Below, piece by piece: positions 4,182 to 30,916 of a DNA stretch of 41,259 nucleotides. The notes below the pieces were generated by a model. The model had not been told where the DNA came from, searched no databases, and was given only the letters and a program-made list of their open reading frames with translations. The DNA is from Candidatus Dormiibacterota bacterium (GTDB lineage: Bacteria; Chloroflexota; Dormibacteria; Aeolococcales; Aeolococcaceae), in NCBI GenBank assembly GCA_036495095.1, contig DASXNK010000004.1:1-41259 (forward strand). The letters run 5' to 3'. Within the stretch, counting starts at the first letter, position 1; each line of letters begins with the position of its first letter. The translations under genes were made by a program, and so were the position numbers.

Positions 4182-5851
4182 TGCAGGCCCTCGCGCAGCC
4201 GCTGGCGCAGCTCGGTGCGGCGGATCTTGCCGCTCACCGTCTTGGGCAGCTCGCTGACGAAGTGGACCTCGCGCGGGTACTTGTAGGGGGCGGTCACGGT
4301 GCGCACGTGGTCCTGCAGCTCCCTGGCCAGCGCCGGGGTTCCCTCGACGCCGGGGACCAGGATGCAGAAGGCGGTGACGATCTGGGTGCGCTCGGGGTCC
4401 TCCCTGCCCACCACCGCCGCCTCGGCGACCGCGGGATGCTCGACCAGCGCGCTCTCCACCTCGAAGGGACCGATGCGGTACGCCGAGCTGGTGATGACGT
4501 CGTCGGCGCGACCCTCGAACCAGAGGTAGCCGTCGGCGTCCCGGCGGGCGTGGTCACCGGTGAGGTACCAGTCGCCGACGTGGCAGGCGGCGGTCGCGTC
4601 GGGGTCGTGCCAGTACTCGCGGAACATGCCGATGGGGCGGTCGGGCCGCACCCGCACCGCGATGTTCCCCTCCTCGTCGTCGGGGACGGGATTGCCCTCG
4701 TCGTCGACGATCTGCACGTCCATGCCCGGCGTGGGCTTGCCCATCGAGCCGGCGCGCACCGGCATGCACCGGTAGTTGGCGACAACGTTGACTGTTTCCG
4801 TCTGGCCGTAGCCGTCGTAGACGGTGAGGCCGCCGGTGCCGTCCTCCCACACCCGCATCACCTCGGGGTTGAGGGGCTCGCCCGCGCTCATGCAGTGGCG
4901 CAGCCCCCCGAGATCGTGACCCCGGATGTCGGTGAGCACCAGCATCCGGTAGAGCGTCGGCGGCGCGCAGAACGTGGTGATGCCGTTGCGCGCGACCACG
5001 TCGAGGATCAGGTCGGCGTCGGGCCGGCCCATGTTCATGTTCACCACCTCGACGCCGGCGGCGAACTGGCCGAACAGCTTGCCCCAGGCGGCCTTCGCCC
5101 AGCCGGTGTCGGAGATGGTCCAGTGCACGTCGTCGGCGCGCAGGTCCTGCCAGTACCGGGCGGTGATGGCGGCGTGGCCGATGGCGTAGGACTGCGGGTG
5201 CAGCACCATCTTCGGGTAGGCGACGGTGCCACTGGTGAAGTACACGAGCATGGGGTCGTCGCTCGCCGTGGGGTCGGCGGCGGTGTCGCCGTCGCCGGCG
5301 GCGGCGAGCAGGCCGGCGAGCGGGAGCCAGATGGCCGACGGGGCCTCCCCCACCACCACGTTGGTGCGCAGCGTGGGCAGCTGGTCGCGGACGGCGTCGA
5401 CCTTCGCCGCGCCGTCGGTGTCGACCACCGCCGCCACCGCGCCGGAGCGCTCGATCCGGTAGCGCACGTCGCGGCTGGTGAGCATGGTCGGGGCCGGCAT
5501 CGCGATGGCGCCGATGCGGATGGCGCCGAGCACCGCCGTGTACCACTCCGAGATCCTCGGCAGCATCACGAAGACGGGATCGCCCCTGCCGACGCCGAGC
5601 GCGGTGTACGCGTTGGCCATGCGGCGGCTCTCGCGGCAGAGGTCGGCATAGCTCTGGCGGGAGACCACCCCGCCGGCGGCGTCGAGCGAGAGCAGCGCGG
5701 GGCGGTCGGGTCCACTCGCCGCCTGACGCTCGAGCACGTCGAGCACGAAGTTGAAGCGCCGCGGCACGTCGAGCCGGAAGCGGGCGCGCTCCGCCTCGTA
5801 GTCGGTCATGTTCGGAGCCGCATCACGCCCGGGCCGCGCCGTGACCGCCAT
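4178..5851 (-). CDS. AMP-dependent acyl/acetyl-CoA synthetase
   Basis: Acyl-adenylate-forming enzyme (ANL superfamily) that converts a carboxylic acid, ATP and CoA to acyl-CoA, AMP and PPi. It has 557 residues. Motifs seen: the phosphate loop around residues 205-214 (TSGT, then YPK), GYGQTET near 335, the hinge region with YLTGDHARRD, then GRADDVI, and the C-terminal catalytic lysine K542 in VSGKIRRTEL. Overall it resembles the medium-chain acyl-CoA (ACSM) and acetyl-CoA synthetase branch. The ATG at 5851 is chosen because AAGGAGG lies eight bases before it; the frame is open far upstream but without homology. The stop TAG overlaps the possible start of the epimerase. The acid substrate is unknown. 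Confidence 0.92.
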   Translation of the reverse strand: MAVTARPGRDAAPNMTDYEAERARFRLDVPRRFNFVLDVLERQAASGPDRPALLSLDAAGGVVSRQSYADLCRESRRMANAYTALGVGRGDPVFVMLPRISEWYTAVLGAIRIGAIAMPAPTMLTSRDVRYRIERSGAVAAVVDTDGAAKVDAVRDQLPTLRTNVVVGEAPSAIWLPLAGLLAAAGDGDTAADPTASDDPMLVYFTSGTVAYPKMVLHPQSYAIGHAAITARYWQDLRADDVHWTISDTGWAKAAWGKLFGQFAAGVEVVNMNMGRPDADLILDVVARNGITTFCAPPTLYRMLVLTDIRGHDLGGLRHCMSAGEPLNPEVMRVWEDGTGGLTVYDGYGQTETVNVVANYRCMPVRAGSMGKPTPGMDVQIVDDEGNPVPDDEEGNIAVRVRPDRPIGMFREYWHDPDATAACHVGDWYLTGDHARRDADGYLWFEGRADDVITSSAYRIGPFEVESALVEHPAVAEAAVVGREDPERTQIVTAFCILVPGVEGTPALARELQDHVRTVTAPYKYPREVHFVSELPKTVSGKIRRTELRQRLREGLQ

Positions 5852-9191: not shown

Positions 9192-10310
9192 GTGGCCGCC
9201 CTCACCCACGACGCCGTGGTCGTCGGCGCCGGCCCCGCCGGCGCGCTCGCCGCCCTCCATCTCGCCCGCCAGGGCCGCCGGGTGCTGGTCCTCGAGAAGG
9301 CGCGCCCCGGCCGCGACAAGCCCTGCGGAGGCGGGCTGACGGTGCGCTCCTGGCGCGACCTCGAGGTGCCGATCGACGACCTGGTGGTGGCCAGGGTCGG
9401 CATCGCCGACCTCCGCTGCGGTCCCCGGCGGGCGGTGCGCGTGGCCCTCGGCGCCGAGGGGGTGCTGATGGTCCGCCGCCGCGACCTCGACCGGCGCATC
9501 GGGGAGGCCGCGGAGCAGGCGGGCGCCGAGCTCCACCACCAGGAGGCGGTGACGGCCCTCGAGCCCGACGCCGGCGGGGTCGAGGTGCGCACCGGCGCCG
9601 GCCGCTACCGGGCCGCGGCGGTGCTGCTCGCCACCGGGGCGGAGGCCCCGCTGCGCTCCGCGCTCGGCCTGGCGCCCACCGCCGGCACCATGGCGGTGGC
9701 CCTGGAGCTGGAGGGACGGGCCCGAGTCGCCCCGCCGAGGGACGACGCCTTCGTCTTCGACTACGCCGTCCCCGGCGGCTACGCGTGGGCGTTCCCCAAG
9801 GTGGGCCACGAGGGCTGGTGGAACGCCGGCATCGTCACCGGCCGCACCGGCCTCGGCGGTGAGCTGCGCCCCCGGCTGGCGCGCTTTCTCGACCAGGTGG
9901 GGCTGGACTTCGAGGAGCTCTCCGCGGAGCGCGCCACCGGGCGGCGCATCCCCTTCTGGGGCGGCCGGCGGGTCCTCCACCGGGGCCGGGTGGCGCTGCT
10001 CGGCGACGCCGCCGGGCTCGCCGACCCGTTCTTCGGCGAGGGCATCGCCGAGGCGCTGGCCAGCGGCCGCCTCGGCGCCCGCGCCGCCGGCGAGGTGATC
10101 GAGGGCCGCCGCGACGACCTCGGCGACTACACCGCCGCCGTCGACGCCACCCTCCGCACCCACCTGTGGCGGATGCGCCAGGCCGCACGCCTCGTGTACG
10201 CCGCGCCGACGCTGACGCTGCGCGCCCTCGCGATGTCGTCGCACGTGCGACGCCTGGTGACGCGCGCAGCGACCGAGCGCCTCGCCCGCGGCCCGGCCAC
10301 CTCGGTGTGA
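9192..10310 (+). CDS. Geranylgeranyl reductase-like FAD-dependent oxidoreductase
   Basis: Flavoprotein of the geranylgeranyl reductase/ChlP/FixC group, 372 residues from a GTG start. FAD-binding signatures: GAGPAGALAALHLARQG at the N-terminus, the DKPCGGGL segment near residue 50 that is typical of geranylgeranyl reductases, an ATG-type middle motif (VLLATGAEA), and GDAAGLADPFFGEGIAEALASG near residue 275. Such enzymes saturate isoprenoid chains of lipids or quinones; the substrate here is not shown. The final 60 residues are Arg-rich helices. Its stop at 10310 faces a bidirectional hairpin terminator at 10365-10385. No isoprenoid gene is nearby. Confidence 0.85.
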   Translation: MAALTHDAVVVGAGPAGALAALHLARQGRRVLVLEKARPGRDKPCGGGLTVRSWRDLEVPIDDLVVARVGIADLRCGPRRAVRVALGAEGVLMVRRRDLDRRIGEAAEQAGAELHHQEAVTALEPDAGGVEVRTGAGRYRAAAVLLATGAEAPLRSALGLAPTAGTMAVALELEGRARVAPPRDDAFVFDYAVPGGYAWAFPKVGHEGWWNAGIVTGRTGLGGELRPRLARFLDQVGLDFEELSAERATGRRIPFWGGRRVLHRGRVALLGDAAGLADPFFGEGIAEALASGRLGARAAGEVIEGRRDDLGDYTAAVDATLRTHLWRMRQAARLVYAAPTLTLRALAMSSHVRRLVTRAATERLARGPATSV

Positions 10311-10353: not shown

Positions 10354-10386
10354 TAAAAAGAAAAGGGCCGGCGCTTGGCCGGCCCC
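10354..10386 (-). terminator. Rho-independent terminator, possibly bidirectional
   Basis: An 8-bp perfect GC stem (10365-10372 pairs with 10378-10385) with a five-base loop. On the minus strand it is followed directly by a run of Ts broken by one C (complement of 10364-10355), a strong intrinsic terminator. On the plus strand, after the flavoprotein gene, the following bases are only weakly T-rich. Confidence 0.85.
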
Positions 10387-10620
10387 TATTCTTCGAAAGA
10401 TCTCTTTCGACCCGACTGTCAAAGCCGGGAATCGGTCTGAGTACCGTGATGTCGGTCGCTGCCCCAGACCATCCGCGAAGGTTGACCCTTCACTCGCGTC
10501 CGCACCCGCGGTGCGGACTGGTGGTCGGGGCTCTAGGTCTCGGCCCGGCCGCGCCTCAGGCGCTGCCAGCAGGTTCGCATCATGTAGGGCGATCCCTCCG
10601 ACAATTGCCAAACTTCGTGC
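10355..10620 (-). ncRNA. Candidate structured non-coding RNA with kissing-loop potential
   Basis: This gene-free stretch between convergent gene ends looks like a free-standing RNA gene of about 265 bases on the minus strand. Read in the RNA direction it contains: a 9-bp hairpin with a three-base loop (10518-10498); a 7-bp hairpin with loop GUCAA (10493-10475); a 6-bp closing helix (10470-10465 with 10439-10434) around an inner 4-bp hairpin; a 7-bp hairpin with loop UUGAC (10429-10411); an 8-bp inverted repeat (10410-10393); and the terminator. The two loops GUCAA and UUGAC are exact complements. A promoter-like pair lies just upstream. I do not recognise it as RNase P, SRP, tmRNA or a common riboswitch; 6S RNA cannot be excluded. 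It could also be a long 3' UTR of the oxygenase gene. Confidence 0.6.
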
Positions 10621-10625
10621 TGCCT

Positions 10626-10654
10626 AGGATGCAGCAGCGGACCGCTCCCGTCAA
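10626..10654 (-). promoter_or_regulatory. Candidate promoter of the structured RNA
   Basis: On the minus strand TTGACG (10654-10649) is followed after 17 bases by CATCCT (10631-10626), which matches the -35 well and the key A2 and T6 of the -10. Transcription would begin near 10619, just before the structured segment. Prediction only. Confidence 0.45.
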
Positions 10655-10707: not shown

Positions 10708-11349
10708 TCAGCCGACCCGCTCGGGCATGCGGCTCTCCACCCAACGGCGCAGCGCGTCACCGCTCTCCCACGACGTGATCAGCGCGTACCGCGGCTCGGG
10801 TCCCGGATGCCACACGACGTGGTACAGGCGCTGCGTGTCGATGAGCAGCTGCATCCCGCGGTGCAACCGGATGCGCGACTCGGTGGCGGGATCCTCGCGG
10901 TCCTCGCGGAGCACGAAGTACGAGTCGGGGCAGTCGCTCAGCTCCAACCACGAGCGCACCACCCAGCCCTCACCGTCGGGGTTCAGCCGGTTGTTGTCGT
11001 CGAGGTGGAGCTGGCGCAGCGCCGCCTGCTCCGACTCGTACGGATTGAGCTTGATGACGCGCACGCGTCCAAAGCGCGCACCGACACTCTCGACGTAGTC
11101 GACCAGGGTCGGGCAGATGGAACGGTTCTTCGTCCACACGCCGTCCTTGTCGGGCTTGCCGTGGTCCCAGAAGCCGCCGCACTCCATCTCGCCGAGCGCC
11201 GAGGCGATGGGCGCGAAGTTGGTGTCGCCGCCGCTCTTCCAGTCCATGTAGTCGAGGTCCAGGAACTCGCTCTCCGGCACCGGCGGACCGTTGTGGTCAC
11301 GCAGCACGACGAATCCCCTCTCGGCGAGGACATCGAGCTTCTCATGCAT
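10708..11349 (-). CDS. Putative Fe(II)/2-oxoglutarate-dependent oxygenase-like protein
   Basis: A 213-residue cytosolic protein. The C-terminal half has the residue pattern of a double-stranded beta-helix 2OG oxygenase of the aspartyl/asparaginyl hydroxylase type: H115-x-D117 (QLHLDDNN), a distal His (H177 or H181 in LYHVVWHPG) and an Arg (R187 in EPRYALITSWES) that would bind 2-oxoglutarate. Function is inferred from this pattern only; the substrate is unknown. The N-terminal 80 residues are not recognised. Codon use looks slightly less GC-biased than the neighbours, and the gene sits beside the unusual RNA region, so recent acquisition is possible. The HisN-type gene ends 59 bases upstream on the same strand. 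Confidence 0.75.
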   Translation of the reverse strand: MHEKLDVLAERGFVVLRDHNGPPVPESEFLDLDYMDWKSGGDTNFAPIASALGEMECGGFWDHGKPDKDGVWTKNRSICPTLVDYVESVGARFGRVRVIKLNPYESEQAALRQLHLDDNNRLNPDGEGWVVRSWLELSDCPDSYFVLREDREDPATESRIRLHRGMQLLIDTQRLYHVVWHPGPEPRYALITSWESGDALRRWVESRMPERVG

Positions 11350-28093: not shown

Positions 28094-29968
<1,875 letters not shown>

Positions 29969-30916
29969 CTATTCGGTTGTCGATGGAGAAGGATACTCCG
30001 GCCGTGCGCCCCGGCCCACCGACGCGGCCAGCTCCTCGATGGCGGTCAGGCAGCGCCCCGGGTGGGAGAGCGGCAGCAGGTGGTCGGCCCCGGCGACCAC
30101 CTCGAGGGTGACCTGGGGATGGCCGGCGGCGAGCTCCTCGAGCAGGCCGAGGTCGGGGAGCGGGTCGGTGCCGCCGATGAGCAGACGCACCGGCACGCCG
30201 GCCTCGACCAGCCAGGCGGGCCGGGCGGTCGCGCCCACCAGCTCGGCGAAGCTCTGCGAGTACGACTCCCAGGTGTGGCGGACGCCGTCGAGGGCCACCG
30301 CCAGAGGCAGCTCGGGCCGGTAGGTGGTGGCCACCCGGCGAGCCAGCCAGGGACGGCGCATGCACATCGCCCGGCAGAGGTGGCGCGAGTACCGGGTGTC
30401 GGTGCAGAAGGTGCGCTCGGTCCAGGTCAGCGCCCGCCGGGTGGCGGCGCGGGCGCCGGCCGGGCCGCGGTAGAGCGGCGGCGAGACCAGCAGCAGGGCG
30501 CCGACCAGCCCGGGGTGGGAACGGGCGAGGGCGAGCGCGACCAGCGCGCCGAAGCTGTGCCCCGCCACCACCGCGGGGGCGTCGTCGACCCCGGCCGCCG
30601 CCACCGTCGCGGCCACCGCAGCGGCGTGCGCCTCGAGGCTGTACCCGGTGGGCGGCCAGGGTGAGGCGCCGAAGCCGAGCAGGTCGGGGACAAGCAGCCG
30701 GTGGCGAGCTCCGAGGCGGTCGAAGGCGCTTCCCCAGAGCCGCCCCGAGGCGGCGAGCCCGTGGAGCAGCAGCACCGGCGTTCCGGCCGCGCCGGCCCGC
30801 CGCGCCACCAGCGGGCCGCAGTGCCGGGCGGGCAGCGGCTCCTCCCAGCCGAACGCCGCCCGGCGCCGCAGCGCCGCCGCCCGCCCCGACCGCCAGCCCG
30901 TGGTCACGTCCCGCAC
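29969..30916 (-). CDS. Alpha/beta-fold hydrolase
   Basis: Cytosolic serine hydrolase of 315 residues. Features: LLLHGLAASGRLWGSAFDRL (oxyanion region), the nucleophile elbow AGHSFGALVAL, the acid loop LLIGGTDPLPD, and the catalytic His in AGADHLLPLSHP. The insert with TFCTDTRYSRHLCRAMCMRRPWLARR (cap region) is basic and Cys-containing. The start is GTG 30916. The stop sits directly before the TPP aptamer of thiC, so a transcript from here would run into the riboswitch. The substrate is unknown, and a role in thiamine metabolism is not indicated by sequence. Confidence 0.85.
   Translation of the reverse strand: MRDVTTGWRSGRAAALRRRAAFGWEEPLPARHCGPLVARRAGAAGTPVLLLHGLAASGRLWGSAFDRLGARHRLLVPDLLGFGASPWPPTGYSLEAHAAAVAATVAAAGVDDAPAVVAGHSFGALVALALARSHPGLVGALLLVSPPLYRGPAGARAATRRALTWTERTFCTDTRYSRHLCRAMCMRRPWLARRVATTYRPELPLAVALDGVRHTWESYSQSFAELVGATARPAWLVEAGVPVRLLIGGTDPLPDLGLLEELAAGHPQVTLEVVAGADHLLPLSHPGRCLTAIEELAASVGRGARPEYPSPSTTE

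Follow-up and report, generated by a model that had tools for sequence, protein, structure and literature searches.

A short, conserved gene in one order of Dormibacterota, probably for a dual-function RNA

The element between two convergent genes

The window, the whole stretch of 41,259 nucleotides that was analysed, comes from a Dormibacterota (Chloroflexota) MAG. Two genes converge within it, 9192–10310 (+) and 10708–11349 (−). Between their ends lies a minus-strand element, with a transcript predicted to extend from approximately 10618 to 10355 (~260 nt). The initial annotation described this region as a gene-free stretch between convergent gene ends, holding a structured RNA candidate. 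The setting and the structure are as described. The stretch is not gene-free, however, as a 16-codon ORF lies behind a GGAGG at 10583–10533 (−) and is conserved in relatives. In the order of the minus strand, the features are as follows, where G002 denotes a genome with an ortholog and C196 another contig of the window's own genome, with a paralog:

10649–10654 (−): −35 element TTGACG, with TTGAC(A/G) at the matching place in most aligned relatives
10626–10631 (−): −10-like element CATCCT after a 17-nt spacer, weak alone; relatives carry CATGCT, TATCTT or TATGTT
10595–10599 (−): Shine-Dalgarno (SD) sequence GGAGG, found in all members listed
10533–10583 (−): 16-codon ORF, MMRTCWQRLRRGRAET followed by the stop, which the coordinates include; a conserved peptide family with protein-level constraint
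10520–10531 (−): 5' arm of the long post-stop helix, GCCCCGACCACC, starting just past the stop codon, from the fold
10498–10518 (−): inner hairpin GTCCGCACCGCGGGTGCGGAC, from the fold; the G002 and C196 copies keep the stem with other bases
10475–10493 (−): 7-bp hairpin with loop GUCAA, from the fold; loop not conserved
10461–10474 (−): 3' arm of the long post-stop helix, GGATGGTCTGGGGC, from the fold
10411–10429 (−): tandem hairpin H1 with loop UUGAC, from the fold and the tandem-hairpin comparison among members
10393–10410 (−): tandem hairpin H2, TCGAAAGAGATCTTTCGA, from the fold and the same comparison
10355–10387 (−): intrinsic terminator, a 10-pair stem (10387–10363) and U-tract, from the terminator scan

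The −35/−10-like pair reported initially holds in part. The −35 is good, and the position and spacing of the pair are kept in relatives, where better versions occur (e.g. TTGACA-16-TATGTT); the −10 is poor and a strict consensus scan of the window copy finds no promoter. At the other end, the hairpin and U-tract were correctly read as a terminator, and the terminator scan found two terminator-like sites where 0.2 were expected. The minus strand of 10355–10654 folds with a minimum free energy of −146.3 kcal/mol, and dinucleotide-shuffled versions give −118.6 ± 5.2 kcal/mol (z −5.3, 0/200). A signal is present on the plus strand too (z −3.8), which is expected from the inverted repeats.

The hairpins with loops GUCAA and UUGAC are both where the initial annotation had placed them, and the loops are complementary in the window copy, as the proposed kissing interaction would need. 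As a conserved feature, this interaction was rejected because neither loop is present in the G002 ortholog or the C196 paralog. Here, the ortholog (83% identical) has a GAAGG-GUCC-CCUUC hairpin and an AUGA loop instead, and the paralog differs again. Both arms of the post-stop helix are found in these two copies, and family f2 has a covarying helix at the equivalent place.

The view of the element as free-standing and apparently undescribed was upheld. When the whole window was compared to Rfam, the element had no match at the gathering threshold (best E at least 0.05, below half the gathering scores), and none of 13 copies gave a credible E-value. The weak matches to SpF03, SorX and PrrB/RsmZ were far below the cut-offs and were rejected. 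No tRNA or tmRNA was found in the window, and its sole Rfam match at the gathering threshold is a TPP riboswitch at 29865–29969 (−). A literature search returned no mention of the peptide, of such an RNA or of small RNAs in Dormibacterota.

Distribution and ancestral locus

DNA searches found two further copies in the same genome, on contigs C196 and C194, for a total of three, and additional copies in both congeners. Using a relaxed peptide pattern, relatives were found in 35 of the 50 genomes of the order, covering 15 of 19 genera and two families, while the reversed control pattern had zero matches in the order. Elsewhere in the class, the same relaxed pattern produced no convincing match (60 genomes). 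Six weak matches there were discounted, the inspected ones in family f4 since they lie inside one protein gene family and the others by poor fit. Another 345 genomes of the phylum had none, nor did viral contigs. Pattern matches in f3/f4 genomes (e.g. MRTVWAVLSCRGAY) were rejected as lying inside protein-coding genes or being without context; at the syntenic place, such an ORF was not found in these families or in genera g7, g12 and g13. A degenerate pattern run over a genome collection gave Candidatus Dormiibacterota/Chloroflexi MAGs as hosts, and a match in Betaproteobacteria was set aside as due to chance. Judged from these searches, the gene has so far been found in a single order, which belongs to Dormibacterota, an uncultured soil lineage.

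The locus was compared across genomes using yebC as an anchor. In the ancestral order, thrS-infC-rplT-pheS-pheT(-MPG glycosylase) converges on the RNA gene, and tyrS-yebC-ruvC lies on the other side, divergent from it. Because the RNA gene is convergent with pheT(-MPG) and divergent from tyrS, the transcript is an independent unit that leads into no gene, in agreement with the initial opinion that it is unlikely to be a leader. In family f4, pheT-cvpA-tyrS-yebC run together without the RNA gene. The window's genus has two extra copies at unrelated loci, which are those of the window and of C196. The ancestral-type copy on C194 (L035 = G000:C194:73000-83000, ~5300–5640 (−)) is ~60 nt upstream of tyrS and co-directional with it, an arrangement that other genera do not share and which suggests a local inversion. 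Just before the C196 paralog there is a c-di-GMP-I-GGC riboswitch (L004:619–693 (+), G000 contig C196), upstream of an exported-protein-like ORF.

Constraint on the peptide and on the RNA

Across the window, C196, C194 and congener copies, the best conserved block is not the helices but the short ORF behind GGAGG. The encoded peptides are MMRTCWQRLRRGRAET in the window, MTRTIWQRLRRGRGEV on C196 and VMRTVWQRLRRGRAEG on C194. The family is basic and 14–16 residues long, with the consensus M-R-T-V-W-x-x-L-R-H-x-R-A-E. Over 28 distinct 13-codon cores, the codon-position entropy is 0.63/0.45/0.88, so that third positions are the most variable. W4, R8 and A12 are identical in 28/28 cores, with R8 encoded by AGG, CGG or CGA and A12 by GCG, GCC or GCT, and the in-frame protein-similarity score was matched by none of 200 column shuffles. 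On this comparative evidence, the ORF is constrained as protein. "Structured RNA" alone is consequently the wrong label for an RNA that carries such an ORF: the structure is there, and the initial description was incomplete in overlooking the peptide.

Two members vary in length. In G019 (L076, 226–335), the ORF is 35 aa long, with a 20-residue extension preceding the family motif GRTVWQLLRHGRAER and the stop; the C-terminal motif of this 35-aa version reads MSTVWTIPRQMRLPLQLPYCGRTVWQLLRHGRAER, again followed by the stop. In G003, the peptide has a 5-residue C-terminal tail, SRPAR. It is therefore the peptide motif that is kept, and not its distance from start or stop. The G019 ORF also has a partial internal repeat, STVW ... 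RTVW. A type I toxin, that is, a short hydrophobic membrane peptide with an antisense antitoxin, was considered and rejected since Arg makes up 5 of the 16 residues of the window peptide, which is without a hydrophobic segment.

In most members, the SD stretch GACGG is complementary to CCGUC in the T-V codons (codons 2–4). CCGTC is kept in 23 of the 25 members with GACGGAGG, compared to 2 of 8 without it. By folding energy, a 5' stem sequestering the SD is not significant (mean z −0.56).

Covariation was assessed on a 14-sequence alignment from family f2 (A1), using a structure comprising the post-stop helix, the inner hairpin, H1, H2 and the terminator, which leans toward itself because it was drawn from one member. 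Double changes were seen at 20 pairs, compared to 10.0 in shuffles, and the covariation score was 0.213, relative to 0.116 when shuffled (0/500) and 0.052–0.098 in slid controls. When the consensus structure was derived automatically from this alignment, the result was weaker, with double changes at 5 of 26 pairs and agreement confined to H1, H2 and a portion of the post-stop region. The MAFFT alignment is partly misregistered across subfamilies in the terminator and the middle region, and pair counts there are thus conservative. Homologues across the order and covarying helices, for which the initial annotation had proposed looking, are both present.

Further evidence of shared architecture comes from the two tandem hairpins directly before the terminator. 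Of 34 members, 32 have them, compared to 4.8 predicted by sequence shuffling, counts which are inflated because the members are related and so are not independent trials; the same limit applies to the shuffle counts above. The stem sequences are unrelated, and both misses, the G002 ortholog and C196, belong to the window's own subtype. The H1 loop motif UUAUCC is kept across most of family f2. The first stable helix begins 0–2 nt past the stop codon, and in single sequences its pairing is only modestly stronger than expected by chance (mean z −1.06). As the alignments stand, the RNA helices are constrained besides the ORF. Between the two families, the alignment is poor in the middle of the RNA, and much of it may therefore simply be stable 3' UTR.

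Class membership and proposed working

With 6S RNA, tmRNA, SRP, raiA and other Rfam families, the element shares the form of a free-standing structured RNA of 200–350 nt; it differs from them in having no covariance-model match and in its conserved SD and ORF. Leader-peptide attenuators (trpL, pheL/pheM, TnaC, erm and whiB7 leaders) have an SD and short ORF near the 5' end, a helix after the ORF and an intrinsic terminator. The element has the same layout, its helix following right after the ORF. Unlike them, it is without a downstream operon in the ancestral locus and in the window, is without an amino-acid run and, in one genus, has spread to unlinked loci. The dual-function sRNAs SgrS/SgrT, RNAIII/hld, SR1/SR1P and VcdRP are likewise short, stand-alone RNAs with their own promoter and terminator (predicted here), a small ORF and a structured part. 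No sequence or structural relation to them was found, the element is restricted to Dormibacterota, and its ORF is 14–16 codons long, compared to the 29 codons of VcdP in VcdRP (PMC8672173). The element would then be a new family, working most like the dual-function sRNAs.

The reading that we favour, with moderate confidence, is a small, free-standing dual-function RNA gene that encodes a functional peptide and a structured 3' domain. It draws on the conserved gene, the coding constraint, the conserved structure and the absence of a downstream gene in the ancestral locus; in the sequence comparison, the promoter elements are conserved in place, the terminator is strong, and the SD accompanies an ORF with protein-level constraint. 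A housekeeping-type promoter, indicated by the conserved TTGAC(A/G)/−10 pair, would drive an RNA of ~260 nt ending at the intrinsic terminator. Ribosomes would bind near the 5' end to make the 14–16-residue basic peptide, which would be a functional product. The rest of the RNA would fold into the helix directly after the stop, the two tandem hairpins and the terminator. This covarying 3' domain would have its own job, which may lie in trans, through base pairing or the binding of a protein, or in protecting the message. As the helix starts 0–2 nt after the stop, a terminating ribosome would cover its base. Translation of the ORF and folding of the 3' domain are therefore probably coupled, either as regulation or as mere geometry.

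In a simpler version, the transcript is a plain microprotein mRNA where the peptide is all that matters and the 3' structure serves as a stabilising 3' UTR with a terminator. The protein-level constraint fits this, and so does the contrast between the ORF and 5' UTR, which align across families, and the middle of the 3' region, whose sequence and length are free to diverge, the terminator ending anywhere from 119 to 247 nt past the stop. The covarying helices, the fixed tandem-hairpin architecture beyond the terminator and the retention of the H1 loop motif in f2 argue against it, and we regard it as rather unlikely. The opposite extreme, a purely regulatory RNA with an incidental ORF, is consistent with the strong folding and covariation, and the GACGG/CCGUC pairing available in many members means that some of the ORF sequence could be conserved for its role in the RNA. 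However, the peptide R-T-x-W-x-x-L-R-x-x-R-A-E persists where that pairing is missing (G035, G036, G040, G006 and the window copy), synonymous changes occur elsewhere, and the SD and stop are kept, making this reading very improbable indeed.

Attenuation, where ribosome behaviour on the ORF selects either the terminator or an antiterminator ahead of a regulated gene, is also improbable. The order of short ORF, helix and terminator is the classic layout, and the C194 copy does precede tyrS on the same strand. This rearranged copy is nevertheless the only one with a co-directional gene directly downstream in all contexts inspected, and an attenuator of tyrS was rejected for that reason. Downstream of the window copy, the C196 copy and almost every other member lies a convergent gene (MPG, pheT, FAD oxidoreductase), and the tyrS of other genera is divergent from the RNA. 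No amino acid forms a run in the peptide and no consistent antiterminator was identified. The reading is largely refuted by context. Somewhat less improbable, though still doubtful, is a trans-acting leader-peptide switch cut loose from its downstream gene. Here, a ribosome on the arrest-like or sensing nascent peptide RTVWxxLRxxRAE would change how a free-standing regulatory RNA folds, which would be a new kind of element.

This gene would be missed twice by annotation, as it is too short for protein calling and absent from Rfam as an RNA. It has nevertheless stayed at a single genomic position across an order of this uncultured soil lineage, with duplication in one genus. Its ORF is among the smallest with arguable protein-level constraint and is tied to a covarying RNA. 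The family offers a clean system in which to ask whether transcripts of this sort work through the peptide, the RNA or both.
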